Below are positions 10,183 through 33,202 of a DNA stretch of 33,202 nucleotides, in pieces; within the stretch, counting starts at the first letter, position 1; the number at the start of each line of letters is the position of its first letter. A model generated the notes under the pieces. That model was not told where the DNA came from. It searched no databases and was given only the letters and a program-made list of their open reading frames with translations. The stretch is from a virus. A program made the position numbers and the translations under genes. The stretch is from positions 1 to 33,202 of the IMG/VR virus record IMGVR_UViG_3300042517_001250; one strand, written 5' to 3'.

Positions 10183-11382
10183 TTATATATTTTGAAGTGC
10201 TGTTGTAATGAAACTAAAATCAGCTTGTTTTGGAAAATAAATTGGGTTTAAATTATTTTGAATGTCAAATATAATATTACCATTCAAATCCATTAACCTA
10301 AAACCTCTTATTCTTGGCAACTTAAACACATCAACTGGAACATCTATATTTGGGTAAAAATAGTAATCATTGACATAACGTACACCATCTACATTTTTTA
10401 CAATTTGTAGTAGATTATCCCATTCTATTTTTTGTCCAGTTCTCATGTACCTATAATCCAAATATTTGCCTAGTTGTATTTGAATTTGTTTTCTTACCTC
10501 GTCAGGGTTATAACTAGGCTGTAAATCAACCCTCATGCTTATATCCAATGGTTGGAAGTCTACATTTCTAAGCACCATACCATAACCATTAAAATTTGAC
10601 GGTCTAAATTCGGTAATTGAGAAGAATTTACTGCAACGTAGAAGCATGTCGTTAAACTCGCTTTCTGTAAAGTCAATTCCGTTTTCAGCAAGTACATTTA
10701 AAACAACCCTACCATCGTTATCTATTCCACCATAATATACTTTGAAAACATTTTCATTTATTTTCATTAATGTTTGTTCAATTTGCGCTATGGTGCTTCT
10801 GCTCAACAAATTTATACCTTCCTTAATTCGTTTACGAAAAACGTCATCGGATTCAGCATCACTACCCATCGTGGCATGGTATTCGTTTATGCTATATTCA
10901 TGCCCATTGGGTATTGGGTTAATTTTATTAATTGTGGTTGAAGGTACATTGGTTTTTTCTCCAGTAGTATTACTTCTAACCTTAACATAGCCGTATCCAA
11001 AATCACCTATGGTGTAATCGTTAACCAAATCAAATTCTATTCCGTCAACGCTTTGAAATGAATGTACTCCAGCTACATATTGAGTTCCAACTGAACCAAC
11101 TACCAACATATATGTTGAACTTTGTTTTTGCCCAAAACGCTGCCCGACTCCCATCAAATTAGCAATGTAATCCAAGCTTTCACCAAAAGCTGTATCTGGA
11201 AACATGTGGCTTTCAAGCAATGCAACATCCTTTGTAACTTTTTGTTGTAATTTAGCAACACCAAATGCATTGGCATTCATTACACTACCATCTGTAATTT
11301 TGGTAACTTCGTCTGTCTTATTTAAAAATATTTCTGAAAATATTGCTTTAAGTTCTTCTATTGGTGTTATTTTCGTTATCAT
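10183..11382 (-). CDS. Baseplate wedge protein, Mu gp47/P2 gpJ-like (Baseplate_J family)
   Basis: 399-residue baseplate wedge protein, equivalent to P2 gpJ/T4 gp6, which forms the ring joining the hub to the fibres. The Baseplate_J pattern is visible: an N-terminal LDYIANLMGVGQRFG segment, then VAGVHSFQSVDGIEFDLV and KTNVPSTTINKINPIPNG. Next comes the hallmark SDAESDDVFRKRIKEGINLLSRSTIAQIEQTLMKI (in part, about 165-205), then NEN-VFKVYY. The C-terminus (RPSNFNGYGMVLRNVDFQPLDISM, in part) matches the beta-rich distal region. Length is typical of the family. It lies directly after the gp25-like gene (3 nt), the usual order W-J of contractile tails. Confidence 0.88.
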   Translation of the reverse strand: MITKITPIEELKAIFSEIFLNKTDEVTKITDGSVMNANAFGVAKLQQKVTKDVALLESHMFPDTAFGESLDYIANLMGVGQRFGQKQSSTYMLVVGSVGTQYVAGVHSFQSVDGIEFDLVNDYTIGDFGYGYVKVRSNTTGEKTNVPSTTINKINPIPNGHEYSINEYHATMGSDAESDDVFRKRIKEGINLLSRSTIAQIEQTLMKINENVFKVYYGGIDNDGRVVLNVLAENGIDFTESEFNDMLLRCSKFFSITEFRPSNFNGYGMVLRNVDFQPLDISMRVDLQPSYNPDEVRKQIQIQLGKYLDYRYMRTGQKIEWDNLLQIVKNVDGVRYVNDYYFYPNIDVPVDVFKLPRIRGFRLMDLNGNIIFDIQNNLNPIYFPKQADFSFITTALQNI

Positions 11383-20211: not shown

Positions 20212-20238
20212 TGTTTACGTTTTGTATTAAATACATCT
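20212..20238 (-). repeat. 27-bp intergenic element, copy 2 (possible promoter or leader)
   Basis: Same element as at 5582-5608, differing at one position (G in place of T at position 13, plus strand). It lies 3 nt upstream of the ATG at 20208, in the gap after the anchored protein gene, and its last base is the first base of that gene's stop codon on the plus strand. Near identity over 27 bp of otherwise fast-changing AT-rich gaps suggests function. It could be a late promoter with a short 5' leader. Confidence 0.7.
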
Positions 20239-20942
20239 TAAAATTTCAATAGGCTGTATTGAAGTCCAGCTCCGACATATATACTAGGTTTAAAATTGTC
20301 TGATACACCATACCCAACTTGAAAACCAATACCGAATCTTTTTGGCTTTTGTTTAATTTCAATTTTGCTTACACCAATTGTTTTAACCAATGGATTAGTA
20401 TTATGGATATCTATTGTCGTTCTTGAAGACATTAACAGACGTTTTTTAGTAAATTCGGTTATGTATATGCTGTCGGTAATATTGTAGCTTATTTTTAATC
20501 TATTTACATAACCATTGGTATCTACATACCCATTGCCATAAAGTTGAAAATATTCACTACTATCCTTAATGCTAAAAAACCTTTGTGCTGTATCAACTAC
20601 TGTTATTTGTGGTTCAATTGTGTCATGTATGTTTACAACAACTTCTGAAACTGAATTTACATTTTTAGGCTTTATCTTCAGTAACTTTGTAATGTATTCC
20701 AATTTCTTATTGTAGGCAACTAGCAACAATTCTTTTTCCATTTTAACGGATTCAAATTGCACATGCTCCTTATTGTTTACATCAATCAATGTTTTTATCT
20801 TGGTTTCCCTTGTATCTACATCGTTTGATAGGTTTTCAATTATTGAATTCTTTATGGATATCTTTTTATACACCCAAATTGTTGCCCCTAGTAATGCTAG
20901 TAAAAATAGAATCAATAAAAATTTGTTTTTGTTGTTTTTCAT
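20238..20942 (-). CDS. Anchored periplasmic protein with outer-membrane-like C-terminus (spanin-like candidate)
   Basis: 234 residues from the ATG at 20942. Residues 5-26 form a hydrophobic N-terminal helix (KFLLILFLLALLGATIWVYKK) like an inner-membrane anchor or uncleaved signal. Residues about 30-90 are charged and coiled-coil-like (SIIENLSNDVDTRETKIKTL, SVKMEKELLLVAYNKKLEYI). A beta-rich part follows, then the ending FGIGFQVGYGVSDN and KPSIYVGAGLQYSLLKF, which alternates like outer-membrane strands and ends in Phe. It could span the envelope, as a spanin-type lysis protein does, or sit in the virion. It resembles unnamed Bacteroidetes-phage membrane proteins (DUF6808-like, from memory). 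It follows the tube terminator; an upstream in-frame start at 21074 is rejected. Confidence 0.6.
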   Translation of the reverse strand: MKNNKNKFLLILFLLALLGATIWVYKKISIKNSIIENLSNDVDTRETKIKTLIDVNNKEHVQFESVKMEKELLLVAYNKKLEYITKLLKIKPKNVNSVSEVVVNIHDTIEPQITVVDTAQRFFSIKDSSEYFQLYGNGYVDTNGYVNRLKISYNITDSIYITEFTKKRLLMSSRTTIDIHNTNPLVKTIGVSKIEIKQKPKRFGIGFQVGYGVSDNFKPSIYVGAGLQYSLLKF

Positions 20943-20958
20943 GTTTTTTGTTTTAAAC

Positions 20959-20989
20959 AAAACAACCTCCCAAGAACAGGAGGTCGTTT
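20959..20989 (-). terminator. Terminator after the tail sheath-tube pair
   Basis: ACCTCC and GGAGGT pair around an 8-nt loop; the stem extends outward by C-G and A-T pairs with one G-T wobble on the minus strand (11 bp in total, arms 20960-20970 and 20979-20989). On the minus strand it is followed by a broken T-run (TTTTGTTT). It lies 33 nt after the tube gene stop, as expected for a highly expressed sheath-tube unit. Confidence 0.75.
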
Positions 20990-21021
20990 CGTATTGTAAT
21001 TGTAATGAAATGTATAAAGAA

Positions 21022-21498
21022 CTAAAGTGGAAACAAAATTGGGTTAGTGTATTCAAAGTCAACATCTCTACCACTAATTTGCCCCTCGCTTATATCAAAT
21101 GATTCTCTTGTAATAAAGCAACCTATGATACTAGCAAAGACCTCAAGTTTAGGTGTGATAATGCCCCCTGGACTAGTGGTGTCCTTTACTTTTCTTAAAA
21201 CATCAATTTGTACACCATCAGAACTCAAAAGCAATGTGTTTTCAAATTCTTCAATAGTATTCATGTTTCGAAGTAATGCTCCAGGGATAGCTTGTTTTTT
21301 CAAGTCTATCATGAAGAATCCCATATTGAGTGTACAATTGTATTCTAACGGAGCATACTCGCTCGCAATTAAAGCACCTAGCCCAACTACCTTAGTTCTA
21401 CGAACATTTTCCGTACAACGAATGTTTTTTGCTTTTCCAACTGCAACACCATTTACTTTGATTATCGCTAGTGGTGCTGTCATTACTCTATCTGCCAT
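21022..21498 (-). CDS. Tail tube protein
   Basis: 158-residue tube protein forming the inner channel of the contractile tail. The N-terminus MADRVMTAPLAIIKVNGVAVGKAKNI and the mix of beta strands (VRRTKVVGLG, YNCTLNMGFFMIDLKK, LLSSDGVQIDVLRKVKD) fit the P2 FII/T4 gp19-like tube fold in length and order. The strongest evidence is position: it starts 27 nt after the tail sheath stop, and an intrinsic terminator follows. A second tube gene is not present, so a single tube protein builds the channel. The exact family was not checked. Confidence 0.85.
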   Translation of the reverse strand: MADRVMTAPLAIIKVNGVAVGKAKNIRCTENVRRTKVVGLGALIASEYAPLEYNCTLNMGFFMIDLKKQAIPGALLRNMNTIEEFENTLLLSSDGVQIDVLRKVKDTTSPGGIITPKLEVFASIIGCFITRESFDISEGQISGRDVDFEYTNPILFPL

Positions 21499-21525: not shown

Positions 21526-23223
21526 TTAAAGTTTGATATTTGGGTCTAAAATGTATCCTGTGAAGAACAGCTTGTTAATCGGTCCGTTTGGTACAAAGCA
21601 ATACTCAATGTTCCAATAATCATTTACTAGTTCAACTTTTACATTTTCAAATCTAATAATCAGATTATCTTGCAATGCTCTTACTGAACGTGATTGTAAA
21701 TACCCTTCGGTGAACAGCTTAATTTCTTCAGCACTAGCTGTAAACAAATTGCCACCAACAAATCTAGTAGTTGCATTTATTTTCAACTCCTTATTAATTT
21801 GGTGAATAATTCGCATTATTTGAATTTCAGGACTTTGACCATTTGCAGAAATAAGCAAATTGTTGTTTTGCATGGTATTCACACCCTGATTAATTACCCA
21901 ACCTAATTGTTGTTGATATCTAGTGTGCAATACACCGCCGATAAGTGCTTGTTCTCTTTCGCTCTTTTTTAATTCATGCACCAACCCAGATATTCTAATA
22001 TTCTTGTAAGTAATTGGTATCTGTGGCTCCATTCCAGCTGTAAGACCGCAAACCATCGCAGAATGATAAAATGAATCGTATTCTTTAAATGTTGCACCAC
22101 CGCTATAATTTGGCATCAAAACACCACTATGCACAATTGAAACAAACGCATCGTTATAGTAACTTGCACTTTCCAAACTACCATCATCTGTTCCAGTAGT
22201 AAACTCGTCAGCATTATTACCGCCACCAATAAACATAAGCTTTTCGGTAAAGGTACTATTCTGCTTTATATAGGCTAGAATCTTACCATTTGCAACACTT
22301 TGAGCACCATTGTTTGTACCAACTACCATCTGAGGTGCTGTCCACGCTGGACTTGGTTTCAAGCCATAATCACATAACAAAAACAAGCTATTATCTAAGT
22401 CAACAATGTTATCCAACACATCGTCAACATCTGTTGGATTGTATGAAGTTGTACCACTTGCAAATAATTGCGCTGTTGTACCAAAATTGGTTAAATCAGT
22501 TGGTGTCAATGAAGTTGCACTTGCTGTACTTGCTGTTAAGGCAAATAGTTGATTGAATTTATAATCAGTAGCCATCCATGCAACCAAATCATTTACACTT
22601 GAAAATTCAGGAGTCTGGCAAACAATTTTAGCATCACAATTCACTTCCTCTGTAACGTATTCAACATTGTCAGCATTTTTGCCCCTATATTGCCCCTCGT
22701 AAAATTCAATTATGTATTTTGCTGTATCAATTATTCCAGCTTTAAGCTTCCAACCATAACCTCTACTTACTATTGAAAGTCCATTGTAATTTGTAACTAA
22801 TGCACCATTGCCACGAGTACCTTCATTTTTACATTTTAGTGTAATCGCTCCAGTAGAAAATGTAGTTGCCTTTATAGCAGGGACTGTCGTACAAGCACGA
22901 ACATAGATAACCTTTTCGGGACCTAAGCCATTTTTAGATGGAGACCATAAGAAGTCGGCAACATCATATAAAATTCCACCGCCAATGCTTTCCTTCATAT
23001 CCCTAGCGTTTTTGAATTCATAAACTGATTTCACACCTCCAGCTGTAGGTAATCCAGCGTTAATGCCACCTCCGTAACCATAACCAACACCAATTCCTGT
23101 ATCAATTATGCAAACATTACCATAAGTACCCAATGTTACTGGAACTGGAACACCGCTCTTAATTTGCGAATACGCTCCTGGTTCTATTACTTTTCTACCA
23201 TTGAAATTAACTATTGTAGCCAT
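21526..23223 (-). CDS. Tail sheath protein
   Basis: 565-residue contractile tail sheath. It opens with ATIVNFNGRKVIEPGAYSQ and a Gly-rich segment (GVGYGYGGGINAGLPTAGG). A region with RDMKESIGGGILYDVADFLW and EKVIYVRACTT (about 75-115) resembles the sheath core. The C-terminal third (KLFTEGYLQSRSVRALQDNL, then VELVNDYWNIEYCFVPNGPI and a final FTGYILDP) is the conserved sheath end, which makes inter-subunit strand exchange. Length is within the usual range. It defines the phage as a myovirus-type particle. Confidence 0.93.
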   Translation of the reverse strand: MATIVNFNGRKVIEPGAYSQIKSGVPVPVTLGTYGNVCIIDTGIGVGYGYGGGINAGLPTAGGVKSVYEFKNARDMKESIGGGILYDVADFLWSPSKNGLGPEKVIYVRACTTVPAIKATTFSTGAITLKCKNEGTRGNGALVTNYNGLSIVSRGYGWKLKAGIIDTAKYIIEFYEGQYRGKNADNVEYVTEEVNCDAKIVCQTPEFSSVNDLVAWMATDYKFNQLFALTASTASATSLTPTDLTNFGTTAQLFASGTTSYNPTDVDDVLDNIVDLDNSLFLLCDYGLKPSPAWTAPQMVVGTNNGAQSVANGKILAYIKQNSTFTEKLMFIGGGNNADEFTTGTDDGSLESASYYNDAFVSIVHSGVLMPNYSGGATFKEYDSFYHSAMVCGLTAGMEPQIPITYKNIRISGLVHELKKSEREQALIGGVLHTRYQQQLGWVINQGVNTMQNNNLLISANGQSPEIQIMRIIHQINKELKINATTRFVGGNLFTASAEEIKLFTEGYLQSRSVRALQDNLIIRFENVKVELVNDYWNIEYCFVPNGPINKLFFTGYILDPNIKL

Positions 23224-24196: not shown

Positions 24197-26518
24197 TTAA
24201 AACATTTTTAAACCCATTCTAATATAAGCACATGCTTCGTCTGGGGAGCAACCAAACATTTCAACAAAACCTTTTGCAATATAGTTTTTATCCAATTTAC
24301 CATTCACTGTCTTATGTTGGTACAAATAATCAATGGATTTTCTGTTAAACTCTTCGTTAAATATTTCTTCCTTTTCTTTTTTAGTTAATGGAGGTTTTCC
24401 AGCTTCTTCCCTATCCAATTCTTGAGATTCAACTTCCGCTGTTGACATTTTACTAAAAGCTAATAATGTTTCAACACTACGAGCATTGATGTCAAATGCC
24501 TTATCCTTATGTTTATCGAGCATTTTAATCACATGGTCCATTTCGTCGTGTGAATAATTTTTAATACCATCAAATTCCATATTGGTTAATTCTCCATTGT
24601 CTTTTTTGGCAATATGTTTAATGTATGTCATTGTGTCCTTTCTATCCATACTAAGGTCTTGCGCAAAACTTCTACTCATAATTGGTTGCATTTCCTTACT
24701 TTTAGTAATAGTATCCTTAGGTATGTTGGTAATAAATATCATTTTACCACCGAAGTCAAATTGCTTTGGTATTTTACTTCCATCACTAGCTTTAACTTCC
24801 CTTTGGGACATATTACTAACTTGACTTTGACTGCTACCCAATGCTCCTTTCATATACCCTTTAATATCTGGGTCTTCTAAGGCTGAATCACAATCATCAA
24901 ACACCATTACCTTGTCGTTATGTTCCCACATCAATTGGTAAAATGAAGTTGCTGTAACCTTACCACCATCTATAAACACATAATCATAGTCATCACTTCC
25001 TGGAGTGTGAATCTTTGGGTCAAACATTCTGTCTTTACCAAATTTCCTCTTAAGTGTTTTTTTGACTGTGAAGGTTTTACCAACACCACCACTACCATAC
25101 ATGATAGCACTTTTTTTCATACCATCGCAAACAGCATTCACAGCTCCAGCAAAATCTTTAAATTTTAATGTAATTCTTTTTACAATGTCAGCATCTGATT
25201 CATTATCATCATCAGTTAGCGGATGTTTGTTATCATCATCAAGTTTTGCTTGTATTTTGTTAGCACTAGCATCAGCTTTAGCATCTGGAACTTTACCCTT
25301 AAAAGTAGATTTGTGGTCTGCTGGGAGTTCACCTCTTTCTTTAAGCACATCCTCTGCACTAGTATGGTATTCATGTGTGGTATCCTTTCCACTAATGTAT
25401 CGCTTTAAAACATCACTACTTTTAGTTCTAGCTAATTTGTGGTGAGGTGTATTTAATTTTTTACCATCTTGTTTTACTTTTGCTGTAGGCTGTCCAGTAA
25501 CTTGGTTCCCATTGGCTCTAGGCTTAATTTCATGGTGATGTTTTTTGTATATTGTACCGTCATCACCATGAATAACGTACTTTCCACTACTACTAACCCT
25601 ACCAACCTTTCCAGACTTTTTTTCACCACCATGTTCAAAATCTGCATGGCTACCATGTTCAGCATGTTCTTTACCATTGGCATCAACCCAACGCTTAGTC
25701 TGTTTGCCATTCTTGTCGGTAACTTGCTTTAGTGTTAAATGGCTTGTATCTAAACCTTTTTCAAGTTTGTCTTCACCATTGTTACCATTTTTAAAATTTT
25801 TTTCTATAAAATCATGTATTAAATCAAACCCTTCATCAGTTTCCTCCCAATAACTTCTTTCACTCATTGGTAATTCTAATTTTATTTTTTTTATTTTTAA
25901 TTTGAATTTGTTTAAATTTTCCCTACTAACTTTTAAATTTTTAAAATCAAAATCTTTTGGTAGTATTTCGTCTTCAATTAATTCCTCAATTGCAAAATCA
26001 AATGTTTCATGTAATGAATTTGGAATTTTTACACGTTCTTCTTTAATTTCCCTACTTGCTTTTTCGTGGGCATCCATGTTGTTATCCATCTTATCAACAA
26101 TTCCACTATGCGGATTATCATGCGATCTTTCCATGTATTTATCATACCTAGCCTGATGTAAATCACTTGCATCTAAATGATCCTGCTTAGTAAAATTTTC
26201 ATGCGATTCATGGTCAAAATGATTGTAAACATCCTTACCTGATTTTGTTTTACCAATTACTCTTGAATCAACACCATCAGATTTGTATTTTTTATCATAA
26301 GTAGTTAATCCTTCATTCGACACCTTTTGCCATTTACCCTCGGCAATTTTTTTGTAACCATTTCTAATCTCACCAATTTGACCATGCTTACCACCTTTTT
26401 CAAGCATGTCATTACTAGTAATGCTTTTTTGAAATTCATCTGCAATACCAAAACTAGCTAGTATTTGTTTTCTCTTACTTTCTCCGTAACTGAAGTTTGT
26501 TATATTATTATTTCTCAT
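24197..26518 (-). CDS. Modular AAA+ ATPase embedded in virion gene cluster
   Basis: 773 residues. N-terminal leader (1-28) with SKRKQILASFG; module A (29-67) with NDMLEKGGKHGQIGEIRNGY; module C (about 88-160) with IGKTKSGKDVYNHFDHESH; helical acidic region (about 165-245); module B (261-327) with LTLKQVTDKNGKQTKRWVD and GDDGTIYKKH. Next a low-complexity Lys/Asp-rich linker (330-430), then a AAA+ domain: Walker A GSGGVGKT (475-482), Walker B VMVFDDCD (D541, D542), a sensor-1-like MIFITN (about 595) and an Arg-finger-like MSRSFAQD (about 617). The AAA core resembles a known phage ATPase type with VFDD and SRS signatures. It probably acts as an oligomeric ATPase on protein or DNA; substrate unknown. 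Modules A, B and C recur in the two genes upstream. Confidence 0.85.
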   Translation of the reverse strand: MRNNNITNFSYGESKRKQILASFGIADEFQKSITSNDMLEKGGKHGQIGEIRNGYKKIAEGKWQKVSNEGLTTYDKKYKSDGVDSRVIGKTKSGKDVYNHFDHESHENFTKQDHLDASDLHQARYDKYMERSHDNPHSGIVDKMDNNMDAHEKASREIKEERVKIPNSLHETFDFAIEELIEDEILPKDFDFKNLKVSRENLNKFKLKIKKIKLELPMSERSYWEETDEGFDLIHDFIEKNFKNGNNGEDKLEKGLDTSHLTLKQVTDKNGKQTKRWVDANGKEHAEHGSHADFEHGGEKKSGKVGRVSSSGKYVIHGDDGTIYKKHHHEIKPRANGNQVTGQPTAKVKQDGKKLNTPHHKLARTKSSDVLKRYISGKDTTHEYHTSAEDVLKERGELPADHKSTFKGKVPDAKADASANKIQAKLDDDNKHPLTDDDNESDADIVKRITLKFKDFAGAVNAVCDGMKKSAIMYGSGGVGKTFTVKKTLKRKFGKDRMFDPKIHTPGSDDYDYVFIDGGKVTATSFYQLMWEHNDKVMVFDDCDSALEDPDIKGYMKGALGSSQSQVSNMSQREVKASDGSKIPKQFDFGGKMIFITNIPKDTITKSKEMQPIMSRSFAQDLSMDRKDTMTYIKHIAKKDNGELTNMEFDGIKNYSHDEMDHVIKMLDKHKDKAFDINARSVETLLAFSKMSTAEVESQELDREEAGKPPLTKKEKEEIFNEEFNRKSIDYLYQHKTVNGKLDKNYIAKGFVEMFGCSPDEACAYIRMGLKMF
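25538..25738 (-). repeat. Module B copy in AAA+ gene
   Basis: 201-bp coding segment for 67 residues, from LTLKQVTD to TIYKKH. It matches the segment at 27420-27620 at 57 of 67 residues. DNA similarity is clearly lower than protein similarity, with many third-position changes, so it is kept by selection on the protein. Confidence 0.85.
26318..26434 (-). repeat. Module A copy in AAA+ gene
   Basis: 117-bp coding segment for 39 residues, from FQKSITSNDM to GKWQKVS, identical at all 39 residues to the segment at 27973-28089 but with many synonymous differences in DNA. Confidence 0.85.
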
Positions 26519-26537
26519 TGTGTTTTAAATGTTTTTG

Positions 26538-27752
26538 TTATTTTAATTTTGAATGAAATTGGTAAACTTTAGCATCCCATTGACTAAATGAACCACTTAC
26601 GACTGGAAATCCAACCCACGAGCCCGAATACGAATAACCACTTGAACTAAACTTGTAACCGCCATCTCTAGACATAATTGAATTCAGCATTTCTGCGGAA
26701 ACATCCGCACTATTATTATTAATTGAAGACGAAGCCAATCCAGCATTGTTCTTTGAAAATTTATCTTTATGTTTTTCTTGTAAATCGTACTTATCAAACA
26801 TTATACTCATTTCATATTGAAGTTTTTTATTGTCTACTTCTACATCAAAATGAATACCAACATCCTTGCCATATTTTTTAAGAGTAGCTTGTGAAAGTTC
26901 CTTAAATCTAGCAAAACCTTTCTTAATTTCTGCAAACATTTTATGGTCTTTAGTGTACCCATTTCTTTTAAACCCACTTAAAAGTTCTTTCTCTTTACTT
27001 AATGCCTTATCTAAATTCGCCTTATTGTCAGCTAATTGTTTTACCTTTTTTGCATCAATAGGTTTGGTAGGCTTACTAGCTGTAGGTTTAGTTGCTGAAG
27101 TATTTTTTGTTGCTTCTTTGCTGTGTTTAAGTTTTTGTTCAGTATGGTGTCGCTTTTCATGATTTGCTAACATACCAGAGCCATACCCACCAGTCTCGTC
27201 AACAATTTTTTGCTTTTCAGAAATTTTATCGCTGTGCAATTTTACTGCATCCTCGTGGTCTTCTTTGCTGAAATCTTTATGTTCAGGGTGTTCAGCATCA
27301 TTGTATATATACTTTCCAGAATTAGTTTTACCAATCGCACCTTTCGGTAAGCCTTTGTTTTTAGAATCATTGCTTACATCTTTTGCCTTGTCACCATCAT
27401 GCTTCTGCAATTCCATTGGGTGTTTCTTGTAAATAGTGCCATCATCGCCATGTACTACATATCTACCACTACTGCTCACCCTACCAACTTTTCCAGTTTT
27501 CTTTTCACCATTGTGTTCAAAACTAGCATGTGTTCCATGCTCCATGTGTTCCTTATCGTTAGGGTCTACCCAACGCTTCGTTTGCTTTCCGTTTTTATCG
27601 GTTATTTGCTTTAAGGTAAGATTGCCTCTGTTAATAGCTTTTTCAAGCAAATCATCACAATCTATACCCTTTTCAAACGATACAAATGGTACATCTTGCT
27701 TAAAGTTTGCTAGAATTTGTTTTGCTCTAACTGCATCCAATATATTTCTCAT
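26538..27752 (-). CDS. Modular charged protein, paralogous to the AAA+ N-terminus
   Basis: 404 residues. The N-terminus (MRNILDAVRAKQILANF) shares the KQI(L/M)..F leader of its neighbours. Module B occupies 45-111, module C about 140-210 (IGKTNSGKYIYNDAEHPEH), then a Lys/Thr/Ala-rich linker with KKVKQLADNKANLDKALSKE (about 220-260), a helical domain with FARFKELSQATLKKYGKDVG, and a Ser/Gly/Tyr-rich C-terminus (YKFSSSGYSYSGSWVGFPVV). No catalytic motif is seen. It is unlikely to be a broken AAA+ gene because its C-terminal part is unrelated. It may be a partner, adaptor or substrate of the ATPase, or an internal virion protein. Confidence 0.75.
   Translation of the reverse strand: MRNILDAVRAKQILANFKQDVPFVSFEKGIDCDDLLEKAINRGNLTLKQITDKNGKQTKRWVDPNDKEHMEHGTHASFEHNGEKKTGKVGRVSSSGRYVVHGDDGTIYKKHPMELQKHDGDKAKDVSNDSKNKGLPKGAIGKTNSGKYIYNDAEHPEHKDFSKEDHEDAVKLHSDKISEKQKIVDETGGYGSGMLANHEKRHHTEQKLKHSKEATKNTSATKPTASKPTKPIDAKKVKQLADNKANLDKALSKEKELLSGFKRNGYTKDHKMFAEIKKGFARFKELSQATLKKYGKDVGIHFDVEVDNKKLQYEMSIMFDKYDLQEKHKDKFSKNNAGLASSSINNNSADVSAEMLNSIMSRDGGYKFSSSGYSYSGSWVGFPVVSGSFSQWDAKVYQFHSKLK
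27420..27620 (-). repeat. Module B copy in 404-residue gene
   Basis: Second copy of the 67-residue module described at 25538-25738, same length without gaps, ten residue differences (V/I, A/P, G/D, A/M, S/T, D/S, G/N, S/T, K/R, I/V). Confidence 0.85.
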
Positions 27753-27762
27753 TCAAATAGTT

Positions 27763-28158
27763 TTAAAAATGTTTATGTGAACTCCATTCTACATCTCCAT
27801 CATGGTGGTCATTGCGAATTCCACCAATGCTATTAACATGCTCATCATCGTAAACTTTGCTGTCAAGCTCACTTGCCGACTTCTCATGAGCAAAAGCACC
27901 ACTTTTGTCACCATAATATAATTTATTTTTAACTTCATTTTGGTGTTCTTTTTTTGTCCAACCATGTGTTTTAGAAACTTTTTGCCACTTCCCTTCGGCT
28001 ATCTTTTTGTAGCCATTACGAATTTCCCCAATTTGACCATGTTTACCACCCTTCTCAAGCATATCATTACTTGTAATGCTTTTTTGGAAGTTGTCGTCTG
28101 TAGTGCCAAAACACGACATAATTTGCTTTCTTCTAGCTTCGTCACCTATGTTTTTCAT
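27763..28158 (-). CDS. Small modular protein, first of the three-gene modular locus
   Basis: 131 residues. Leader MKNIGDEARRKQIMSCFG, module A at 24-62 (identical to that of the AAA+ protein), then a short region with HGWTKKEHQNEVKNKLYYGD and a His/Asp-rich C-terminus (IGGIRNDHHDGDVEWSSHKHF, in part). The C-terminal segment with AFAHEKSASELDSKVYDDEH loosely resembles module C. The gene follows the FnIII protein after 27 nt and precedes the 404-residue gene after 10 nt. Function unknown; probably works with the two downstream genes because they share its leader. Confidence 0.7.
   Translation of the reverse strand: MKNIGDEARRKQIMSCFGTTDDNFQKSITSNDMLEKGGKHGQIGEIRNGYKKIAEGKWQKVSKTHGWTKKEHQNEVKNKLYYGDKSGAFAHEKSASELDSKVYDDEHVNSIGGIRNDHHDGDVEWSSHKHF
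27973..28089 (-). repeat. Module A copy in 131-residue gene
   Basis: Encodes the same 39 residues as 26318-26434. Both copies start 23-28 residues after the initiator Met, right behind a KQI(L/M)..F leader. Confidence 0.85.
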
Positions 28159-28185: not shown

Positions 28186-28743
28186 TTAAGAAGTGGTTCC
28201 AGTTCCGTTTGCACTATTAGCACTATCGGCACAACCAAAAAGATTCAAGGAACCTTTTGCCTTTACTCTAAAGTAATAGGCTGTTCCTGTTGTTAATCCA
28301 GTAACTACCTTATTCGCAGAAAGATTATCTAATTCAAAAGTAACAACTCCTGTTGTGAACCCTGCATTCGTTGCTCTTTGCAATGTGTAGCCACTTGCTC
28401 CAGTAATTGCACCCCATGTTACCTTCAATGAAGTTGTAGTTGGTGTATTAACTGCAGAAATAACTGGAGTGGTCAACACTTGGTTTGTAATAGCGTTCAA
28501 TTCAGAATTACCTGATTGTGCAACCATGTTCAAACTTTTAGATAACACAAAGGCTTTTAAATTAGCCAATGTGTAAGAATGACCAATTTTGTAGGCAACT
28601 TCAAACATTGATTTTTCCAAATCTGTGCTTATGAAGTCAATACTCATAATTGTAAATTTATCCTTGTTGGAAAGTTTTATTGCATCAGTTCTTAAACGAA
28701 CTAGTACTGTTCCTGCTGGATTAGCGATAATAAAGTCTACCAT
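28186..28743 (-). CDS. Virion protein with C-terminal fibronectin type III domain
   Basis: 185 residues. The N-terminal 80 residues (IIANPAGTVLVRLRTDAIKL, EKSMFEVAYKIGHSYTLANL) have no named fold; residues about 88-178 form an FnIII domain: TPVISAVNTPTTTSLKVTWG, GASGYTLQRATNAGF, TTGTAYYFRVKAKG. FnIII/Ig domains on virions decorate the capsid or tail and bind host surface sugars. The capsid gene 3.4 kb upstream also has such a domain. The N-terminal part could dock on the capsid as a decoration protein, or act as a tail component. The gene ends 27 nt before the modular locus. Confidence 0.75.
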   Translation of the reverse strand: MVDFIIANPAGTVLVRLRTDAIKLSNKDKFTIMSIDFISTDLEKSMFEVAYKIGHSYTLANLKAFVLSKSLNMVAQSGNSELNAITNQVLTTPVISAVNTPTTTSLKVTWGAITGASGYTLQRATNAGFTTGVVTFELDNLSANKVVTGLTTGTAYYFRVKAKGSLNLFGCADSANSANGTGTTS

Positions 28744-30437: not shown

Positions 30438-30893
30438 TTATATAATTTGGTTTAAGTGGTTTTTTAAATCCAATATTAAATTCATACCATTGAATTGCAA
30501 CTTGTCAGCCATTACATAATTGTCATGCTCGTCTTCATCTAATACTATTGTGGCTTTGTCGTTAATCAAATTGCTAACAAAGTAATACAGAATACAATCT
30601 GGTAATTCCAACCTATATGGATTGCCTAATAAAACATAATCAACTTTTGGCTTTAATCCAGTTTCTTCGTATGTTTCCCTAGCACATGTTTGTAATAAGG
30701 TTTCACCCTCTTCCCTATGACCTCCAGCTGTACACCAACAACTTGGATGTGAACTTCTAATGCAACGCTTCAATAACAATATTTTATCAACGCTAATAAT
30801 AATGTTGTTCACAAACTCTTCCTTCTTTTCTTTTTTAAAAGAGTTGAATATTTGCCTTGAAATTATTTTATCTTTAGGGTTTATTTCGTACAT
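30438..30893 (-). CDS. Nudix hydrolase
   Basis: 151-residue Nudix enzyme, which hydrolyses a nucleoside diphosphate linked to another moiety. The Nudix box is complete at residues 58-80: G58 x5 E64 x7 R72-E73 x2 E76-E77 x G79-L80 (AGGHREEGETLLQTCARETY and onward). Upstream strands (IIISVDKILLLKRCI) and LLGNPYRLELPDCILYYFVS fit the fold. Its ATG at 30893 is preceded by a GGAGG at 7 nt spacing, the only consensus Shine-Dalgarno I found. It sits within the head-tail connector genes, so it may have been inserted from elsewhere. Substrate (dNTP, NAD/ADP-ribose, cap) is unknown. Confidence 0.92.
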   Translation of the reverse strand: MYEINPKDKIISRQIFNSFKKEKKEEFVNNIIISVDKILLLKRCIRSSHPSCWCTAGGHREEGETLLQTCARETYEETGLKPKVDYVLLGNPYRLELPDCILYYFVSNLINDKATIVLDEDEHDNYVMADKLQFNGMNLILDLKNHLNQII

Positions 30894-32161: not shown

Positions 32162-33202
32162 CTATGTGAGGTCAGTTCCAATGTTTATAAAGCGAACCAT
32201 TTTCCTAGGAGCATAAAGGAACGGAGTACCATAAAGCAACACCATGAATCGGAAGGCTGGACCAACAACTGCCAAATCCATTTTCATAAGTGGAGCCAAT
32301 TGCTTGAATTCCATTACCTCTTCGCTTTCTTCCATGAGTAACGCTTGGTTGGTTCCTGGCATGAAACGATTGCGGTCACGAACATGACCTGCACTACCGC
32401 CATCATATCCTGCTGTCAATTGGGTTAATGAAACCGTGAACAATGGGCTATAAACCGCATTGCCGACTGTCGCACCCGCTTGGCTTCTATAAATTTGGAA
32501 GCTAGTTGCATTATACGTTGAAGCTGAAGCTGTGAACGTAATGTCAACAGCACCTCCAGCGACAATTGTTGCAGGAGTAGCAAAGACTGTCAGCACACTT
32601 TCGCCGTAACGATTAATGGCTGATACTGCATAGATATAAGTTCCTGCATCAGAAGCGAACCACTTACCCAATGCATCAGTTGCAACTGGAGTAACCGCAG
32701 ACACAACTGGAGCAATTGGAGCATTCGCTGAAGTTGCACTAGAGGCTGAAGTTTTGGTCGGATTCTTGTTGAAGAAAATATCGTAGTTCAAATCAATGTT
32801 ACCAAATTGGGATTCAAAAGATTTTACTCTTTGTCCCATTACACCATCGGTCAAGGCATTGGTATTCGGCTGAATGAACTTGTTACCATAAAACTTCTTT
32901 ACAAAGTTTGATAACACTACTGGAGGAGCATACAAGGCTGTAGCTAAACCGAAGTTTTCAATAATACCATTAGCACCGCTTTCAATGGCTTCTTCAGACA
33001 ATACTTTACCACGCAAATCAATCACGACTTCGCTATTCATGTACTCATTAAATGAGGCAAATGCATCGTTGGATTGATGCTGTGCAATGAATCCGTTAAA
33101 CTCTTCAGGAATCATTGCTTCGTTACCGAAGTAAAGACCACGATTAAGTTTACGCAACAACCACAAAGTACCATTCTTAGCTTCTCTGTCAATAGCATCA
33201 CC
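32162..33202 (-). CDS. Major capsid protein with inserted FnIII-like domain (5' end beyond window)
   Basis: The frame is open to the window edge (about 346 residues shown), so the N-terminus is missing; internal TTG at 33166 is not the start. Visible: LWLLRKLNRGLYFGNEAMIP, GLATALYAPPVVLSNFVKKF, QRVKSFESQFGNIDLNYDIF; then an insertion at about 32400-32690 with GKWFASDAGTYIYAVSAINR and SASTYNATSFQIYRSQAG, an FnIII/Ig-like domain; then QLAPLMKMDLAVVGPAFRFM and YGTPFLYAPRKMVRFINIG, resembling the end of capsid proteins of large phages. The inserted domain probably projects from the capsid surface. The strong terminator right after it fits a very highly expressed protein. The identity rests on recalled family patterns plus gene order. 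Confidence 0.8.
   Translation of the reverse strand, partial: GDAIDREAKNGTLWLLRKLNRGLYFGNEAMIPEEFNGFIAQHQSNDAFASFNEYMNSEVVIDLRGKVLSEEAIESGANGIIENFGLATALYAPPVVLSNFVKKFYGNKFIQPNTNALTDGVMGQRVKSFESQFGNIDLNYDIFFNKNPTKTSASSATSANAPIAPVVSAVTPVATDALGKWFASDAGTYIYAVSAINRYGESVLTVFATPATIVAGGAVDITFTASASTYNATSFQIYRSQAGATVGNAVYSPLFTVSLTQLTAGYDGGSAGHVRDRNRFMPGTNQALLMEESEEVMEFKQLAPLMKMDLAVVGPAFRFMVLLYGTPFLYAPRKMVRFINIGTDLT

Follow-up and report, generated by a model that had tools for sequence, protein, structure and literature searches.

Three neighbouring phage genes, one with an AAA+ domain, as predicted head-packaged and protease-processed cargo

The 33-kb virus record IMGVR_UViG_3300042517_001250, whose 33,202 nucleotides were analyzed whole and are referred to here as the window, raises the question of what three modular genes, one of them encoding an AAA+ domain, are doing among genes for virion parts. 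Profile matches identify the window, in which almost all genes lie on the minus strand, as the virion cluster of a contractile-tail phage, with the gene order head protein, NUDIX, neck-type genes, FnIII protein, the 131-, 404- and 773-aa genes, a 237-aa gene, sheath, baseplate and tail fibre (Table 1). The first-pass annotation had described three open reading frames of these sizes inside a virion cluster; all are present on the minus strand, and the location is correct, since a head protein, sheath and baseplate wedge were identified on the same record. In the cultured Bacteroides phage DAC16, a 243-aa neck gene with a match in the window and a 218-aa gene adjoin each other directly in front of the sheath gene, and the 218-aa gene occupies the position of the 237-aa gene of the window. 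Because these two genes are neighbours in DAC16, the FnIII gene and the three genes appear to have been inserted into the neck-to-sheath gene row.

Table 1. Positions of features in the window (↓, predicted cut)
Feature	Position	Strand	Remarks
Major head protein, PHROG 752	32162-33166		cut by record end
NUDIX gene	30438-30893		
FnIII protein	28186-28743		
131-aa protein	27763..28158	minus	leader, site, tag A, short His/Asp-rich tail
131-aa protein, leader, residues 1-36	28051..28158	minus	predicted removal after LEK36
131-aa protein, earlier predicted site FQK↓S	28078-28089	minus	
131-aa protein, predicted head-protease site LEK↓G	28048..28059	minus	
131-aa protein, module A	27973..28089	minus	39/39 identical to 773-aa copy
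404-aa protein	26538..27752	minus	leader, site, module B, module C, then C-terminal part
404-aa protein, leader, residues 1-38	27639..27752	minus	predicted removal after LEK38
404-aa protein, further predicted site FEK↓G	27666-27677	minus	
404-aa protein, predicted site LEK↓A	27636..27647	minus	
404-aa protein, module B	27408..27620	minus	hairpin + SH3/KOW-like part; relatives L103-L109
404-aa protein, predicted site LPK↓G	27339-27350	minus	ahead of module C
404-aa protein, module C	27210..27335	minus	
773-aa protein	24197..26518	minus	leader, tag A, module C, helical stretch, second site, module B, AAA+
773-aa protein, leader, residues 1-41	26396..26518	minus	predicted removal after LEK41
773-aa protein, module A	26318..26434	minus	
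773-aa protein, module C	26132..26257	minus	
773-aa protein, internal predicted site LEK254↓G	25754..25765	minus	
773-aa protein, module B	25526..25738	minus	
773-aa protein, small beta-barrel, residues about 289-333	25520-25654	minus	model, pLDDT about 75-85
773-aa protein, AAA+ domain, residues about 435-713	24380..25216	minus	PHROG 1250 / T4 NrdC.10 family
Sheath, PHROG 279	21526-23223		
Baseplate wedge, phrog_6	10183-11382		

The building blocks attributed to the three proteins were recovered. Each begins with a leader of the KQI(L/M)..F type (KQIMSCF, KQILANF and KQILASF). Module A (FQKSITSNDMLEKGGKHGQIGEIRNGYKKIAEGKWQKVS) is identical at 39/39 residues in the 131- and 773-aa proteins, reproducing the earlier count, and module B, previously given as 57/67, is shared at 58/71 residues by the 404- and 773-aa proteins with the boundaries used here; the looser module C is identical at 19/42 positions in the same two proteins. 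BLASTP inside the window gave E = 7e-30 for the 131-aa versus the 773-aa protein and E = 2e-43 for the 404-aa versus the 773-aa protein. The copies of module B are 71% identical at the DNA level, and those of module A differ at 19/117 bases, 18 of them third positions. Because 18 of the 39 codons differ and every change is synonymous, module A is, on this codon evidence, an old copy kept by purifying selection; the codon differences rule out a recent duplication as the source of its identity. The 131-aa protein has a counterpart in a 148-aa protein of the cultured Chryseobacterium phage MA9V-3 (48% over 62 aa, E 1.6e-9), and the C-terminal part of the 404-aa protein is without known relatives. 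No close relative of the locus as a whole came up in IMG/VR when either the 773-aa protein or the sheath was the sole query, the 404-aa protein had no phage match by tblastn, and module B was not found in GTDB genomes. In Pfam, the three proteins matched no family above cut-off, including, at this threshold, named polyvalent domains such as MPTase, ParB, ART and LPD; matches such as those to AAA_16, Cass2 and Aminopep were all below cut-off and were taken as chance.

The AAA+ domain of the 773-aa protein is complete, as had been claimed. Residues 377-690 of 773 align with positions 13-311 of the 327 in the PHROG 1250 profile (E 1.8e-32), and the domain has Walker A (GSGGVGKT), Walker B (FDDCD), a sensor N and an arginine finger (R616); the catalytic residues, which are invariant in a 67-sequence alignment, are all kept. 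Structure prediction, which the first-pass annotation had proposed, worked better for the AAA+ part than for the N-terminal half. In the AlphaFold2 model, residues 395-773 adopt an AAA+ fold (mean pLDDT 81.5, with the AAA+ domain mostly above 90), whereas the N-terminal half was modelled poorly (mean pLDDT 49.5), too weakly for a fold search. The nearest solved structures to the AAA+ domain are dynein AAA1, CbbQ and NorQ, which tie at Z 11.5-12.8, so that the fold favours no single AAA+ clade.

Members of the PHROG 1250 AAA+ family were counted in 1206 phage records, most of them T4-like. The KVP40 gene, annotated as similar to T4 nrdC.10, has nrdA, nrdB and nrdC close by and is not part of a head cluster. 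A 2006 comparison of T4-like phages reported an AAA ATPase match for NrdC.10 and gave no function (PMC1524935). We attribute the "thioredoxin" annotation of NrdC.10-type proteins to confusion with the adjacent gene nrdC and reject it. The protein in the window has the same core as the T4 family, with Walker A/B, FDDCD, sensor N and arginine finger. However, the T4-type protein stands alone, with about 340 aa, outside head clusters, whereas the 773-aa protein lies in a head-tail cluster and carries its AAA+ domain, a member of another clade, fused C-terminally to a leader, sites and tags. Among the 85 AAA+ domains placed in a tree, those of the window, MA9V-3, L009, L010, L011, L012 and DAC16 form one clade with 99/98 support, the inner order of which is unsure owing to long branches. 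By this tree, the AAA+ domain of the window is in a separate, well-supported clade whose members are linked to head genes or tagged. Among 80 IMG/VR loci with the AAA+ gene, only L009-L012 have this type of head gene nearby: a head protease in 4/4, the major capsid protein (MCP) and MuF in 3/4, and portal in 2/4. A site and tag precede the AAA+ domain in the window, L009, L010, L011 and MA9V-3, and a site in L012. The possibility that the AAA+ protein is a replication ATPase with no link to its neighbours therefore stands in part, in that it matches T4 NrdC.10, whose uncharacterised gene belongs to the nrd region, but fails in that it belongs to a separate, head-linked or tagged clade.

The leaders of the window proteins and their relatives all end in a short motif, such as LEKG, IEKG, IEKA or LMKS, and this motif recurs in front of two short tags. 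Tag A comprises the second half of module A, and tag B spans the initial 22 residues of module B. A tag A HMM found 22 copies in the window, MA9V-3, L009, L010 and L097-L099, and [LIVF]xK[GAS] lies no more than 18 residues upstream of 21 of them, most commonly at a distance of 3-7 residues. The background in random stretches of the same proteins is 7.9% (binomial p about 1e-22, a value that overstates the case because the copies are related, not independent). For tag B, the site stands in front of 6/6 copies (two in the window and those of L103, L105, L106 and L107) and of all five looser relatives, found in L011, L012, SPO1L2 and fRuSau02. In AlphaFold2 models, at low-to-fair confidence, both tags form short beta-hairpins and the remainder of module B folds into a small beta-barrel.

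Proteins bearing a site and a tag recur beside head genes. In L009, a 340-aa AAA+ protein and three other proteins start with a leader, IEK[GA] and tag A, and sit between portal and MuF/protease/MCP. Tagged proteins also lie between portal and MuF in L097-L099, and in L098 and L099 one leader (MKQPFL.D.DFFKS) is common to many proteins in this interval; the leader layout of the 131-aa protein is likewise found in L009, L098 and L099. In MA9V-3, the gene for the 545-aa AAA+ protein lies between portal and MuF, as do those for the 148-aa protein and for a protein of 520 aa that bears two tags. The tagged proteins include a sigma factor in L098 (PHROG 351, E 2.8e-11), and site and tag are also carried by zeta-type kinases (L098, L107 and DAC16), a RelA/SpoT protein (L105) and NUDIX proteins (MA9V-3, L010 and L011). 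In DAC16 the gene for the 354-aa AAA+ protein is far from the head genes and five genes, counted with about 2.7 kb of the genome left out, share another tag. This tag is N-terminal on the AAA+ protein, the zeta kinase, a 314-aa protein and a 552-aa head-cluster protein, the fifth gene has a version of it at the C-terminus, and [IVL]xK[GAS] precedes it in 4/5 genes. The recurrence of site and tag beside head genes supports the earlier suggestion that the small modules are docking or targeting units, in the sense of targeting or processing units. The Staphylococcus phage fRuSau02 has the same layout in RS_088, in which VHK↓G is followed by a hairpin, and this protein is recorded as structural from LC-MS/MS of purified particles. 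By eye, the C-terminal part of RS_088 is GNAT-like, and it has no Pfam match.

The motif also links these proteins to the head maturation machinery. In 13 head protease/scaffold proteins, drawn from the relatives and from SPO1/phage K-type phages, [LIVF]xK[GAS] was seen 122 times versus 22.3 expected (5.5-fold, z 22.8), with up to 20 repeats in a protease-scaffold protein; it was not enriched in 10 tail proteins (25 versus 26.6 expected). Control motifs with Arg or Glu in place of Lys were flat or weak, and [LIVF]xE[GAS] showed no enrichment (15 versus 19.7 expected). The seven head-linked or tagged AAA+ proteins contain 44 motifs versus 20.2 expected (z 5.5). In the three window proteins the count of 12 versus 7.4 was not significant (69/1000 shuffles), and the case for sites there consequently rests on position: the motif stands at the end of a leader or at a module border. 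Motif and tag groups were chosen after the first examples had been seen, so these statistics, which draw on a small number of independent genomes, describe a pattern and do not test a hypothesis set in advance.

In the capsid proteins of the relatives and of SPO1/phage K types, the motif occurs in the N-terminal region (LQKA in MA9V-3 and DAC16, LSKA in L009, LMKA in L010, LNKA in SPO1L2 and VVKS in fRuSau02). The phage-812-type (fRuSau02) capsid protein in PDB entries 9row, 9rox and 9roz (48 chains) begins at S25, right after DVVK, a start that we read from the deposited sequence as the natural mature end. The protease gene beside the clusters of the relatives is a PHROG 1028 head maturation protease, and the capsid protein there belongs to PHROG 752, the same family as in the window. 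The window is a 33-kb fragment with its own portal, protease and scaffold genes outside it, and the pairing of protease and site is drawn from the relatives. Because the motif enrichment, the capsid N-termini and the start of the PDB chain combine, [LIVF]xK↓[GAS] is probably the cutting site of the PHROG 1028 protease; in the open-access literature we found no statement of a cleavage motif for SPO1/phage K-type phages.

These observations suggest, with fair confidence on our part, that the three genes encode head-packaged, protease-processed and probably injected cargo, with the AAA+ part as an ATP-driven remodeller. Carriage in the virion with injection is also the best of the three roles that the first-pass annotation had offered, as the tagged genes of the relatives adjoin portal, MuF, protease and capsid genes. 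The three proteins would be made late, each with a short N-terminal leader that may carry it into the prohead, an address role suggested by analogy with T4 propeptides (PMC10052503). The head maturation protease of the lineage would then cut after the lysine of [LIVF]xK↓[GAS], removing the leader and exposing module A or B, a small beta-hairpin tag, as the new N-terminus. In the 773-aa protein, a second cut would also split off the N-terminal half, since cutting at LEK254↓G would release module B and the AAA+ domain as residues 255-773. The trimmed proteins would share the capsid with the DNA and accompany it into the host. In the new cell, docking may fall to the hairpin, SH3-like and C modules, and the AAA+ part may use ATP to remodel a complex of the host or of the phage in the early phase of infection. 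Packaging, cutting, injection and the AAA+ target are what we infer from the pattern described above.

Three other explanations have to be weighed against this one. The leader and tags might bring the proteins into the prohead core for head or neck assembly, with the AAA+ part as a MoxR/BCS1-like chaperone and no injection. The three genes do sit among morphogenesis genes, MoxR-type CbbQ and NorQ are among the structural neighbours of the AAA+ domain, tied with dynein AAA1, and MoxR and BCS1 AAA+ chaperones have been proposed to act in jumbo-phage virion assembly (PMC7824862). We nevertheless regard an assembly role as unlikely, given that the same tags are borne by the sigma factor, zeta kinases, RelA/SpoT and NUDIX proteins, which make sense in a host cell and not in assembly, and that the AAA+ protein is missing from most SPO1-like clusters. 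A role in neck assembly, as the first-pass annotation had considered, is further disfavoured in that the relatives do not keep the genes between FnIII and tail terminator but have them near portal, MuF, protease and MCP.

Still less probable is that the AAA+ protein is an ordinary early protein of the T4 NrdC.10 type, its modules generic linkers and its position incidental. The PHROG 1250 match, the mostly T4-like records of this family and the location near nrd genes in KVP40 would fit, but the grouping of the seven head-linked or tagged AAA+ proteins in a clade of their own, the site and tag (in L012, the site) ahead of the domain and the purifying selection on the codons of module A argue against it. 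We give a similarly low probability to the idea that the modules bind scaffold or portal and that [LIVF]xK[GAS] is part of the binding surface and is not cut. Repetition of the motif up to 20 times in one protein fits a repeated interaction motif; however, the capsid chain of PDB 9row begins exactly at the motif, and many sites in one protein are unsurprising because SPN3US head proteins lose long propeptides by multiple cuts (PMC10052503).

Cargo proteins as such are not new, and the view that no system of this form has been described was too strong: polyvalent proteins, T4 Alt and internal proteins, phiKZ-type ejected proteins and crassvirus cargo are all on record (PMC5512222, PMC10052503, PMC10172136). 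Polyvalent proteins (Iyer et al. 2017) are multidomain proteins that, in the parts of the source consulted, are encoded beside virion genes and predicted to be packaged and injected (PMC5512222). The window proteins resemble them in having several domains per chain and in being encoded beside virion genes, and the relatives of the window resemble them in their zeta-kinase, RelA/SpoT and NUDIX domains. In contrast to the predicted head-protease site of the window proteins, processing of polyvalent proteins is, in the same parts, ascribed mainly to built-in metallopeptidases; these parts describe no head-protease site with hairpin tag, and "AAA+" and "sigma" appear nowhere in the paper's text (PMC5512222). 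The T4 internal proteins and Alt, and the ejected proteins of SPN3US and phiKZ, have a short N-terminal propeptide that is cut off by the prohead protease, and in T4 the propeptides target proteins into the prohead core (PMC10052503). Their protease and motif are different, the T4-type leader having LxE or IxE cut by gp21, whereas the leaders in the window end in LEK↓G or LEK↓A, with a predicted cut after Lys; no sequence relation was seen, and the tag behind the predicted cut is new.

The Herelleviridae (SPO1 and phage K) share with the window a PHROG 752 major head protein, and have the same site in capsid, protease and scaffold as well as a virion protein with site and hairpin of the RS_088 type. 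No AAA+ protein of the NrdC.10 type and no tag A were seen in two of their head clusters, and most SPO1-like clusters are without the AAA+ gene. In the crassvirus system, from phages of Bacteroidetes, cargo proteins are stored in the capsid and then ejected (PMC10172136); that phage order and its proteins differ from those of the window. Packaged and injected multidomain phage proteins are thus already known (PMC5512222, PMC7824862, PMC10172136). In the open-access literature, we found no description of the combination of site and hairpin tag, nor of an NrdC.10-type AAA+ protein as head cargo.

A broader proposal, to which we give an even chance, is that a head-protease site with one of a few small beta-hairpin tags directly behind it is a common code, used by MuF phages and by many kinds of tailed phage with SPO1-type heads to mark proteins that are packed, trimmed and injected. 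If so, cargo such as AAA+ motors, sigma factors and enzymes of alarmone or nucleotide metabolism would be predictable from sequence alone. If the cargo reading of the three genes is right, the tag could serve to list the injected effectors of phages that have not been cultured, and one could try the leader as an address that directs proteins into such capsids. Three unexplained genes have in this way led to a testable prediction of head-borne phage proteins and their cut positions, and the NrdC.10 family of ATPases, with members in more than a thousand sequenced phages, gains a context in which one clade is head-linked or apparently tagged as cargo.

The predicted N-terminal cutting region of the capsid protein is copied at the C-terminus of the same phage's own head protease in both the Staphylococcus phage fRuSau02 and SPO1L2. 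In the Bacteroides phage DAC16, a different tag, GIY..SPLNRKLGRVG..Y, is common to five proteins; it is N-terminal in the AAA+, zeta kinase, 314-aa and 552-aa proteins and C-terminal in a 146-aa protein.

RS_088, a virion protein of the phage-K-type phage fRuSau02, consists of a leader, VHK/G (slash, predicted head-protease cut), a hairpin tag and a C-terminal domain. Judged by eye, this domain looks like a GNAT acetyltransferase; a Pfam search with RS_088 returned no match. A sigma-70-type factor encoded within the head cluster of locus L098 carries at its N-terminus the predicted site LLKA and tag A, a small beta-hairpin module, and is predicted to be a virion-packaged sigma factor. The true start of the window's 278-aa ORF is probably more internal than the GTG, and from there the product probably has a membrane segment and is spanin-like.

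Coordinates of the features discussed
Feature	Location	Remarks
278-aa ORF	window 20238-21074	GTG start; overlaps adjoining 158-aa gene
NUDIX gene	window 30438-30893	among neck genes
RS_088	L101:7611-8411	fRuSau02
Head protease	L101:12993-13766	fRuSau02
Head protease	L102:6976-7584	SPO1L2
Sigma-70-type factor	L098:2658-3407	249 aa
RelA/SpoT protein	L105:1601-3334	MuF-type phage

NUDIX domains recur in the window's cluster type, in the Chryseobacterium phage MA9V-3, where tag A is C-terminal, and in IMG/VR loci L009, L010 (fused to AAA+), L011 and L012. The RelA/SpoT domain lies on a protein bearing module B, another hairpin module, and its gene adjoins the portal gene, which suggests injected alarmone chemistry.
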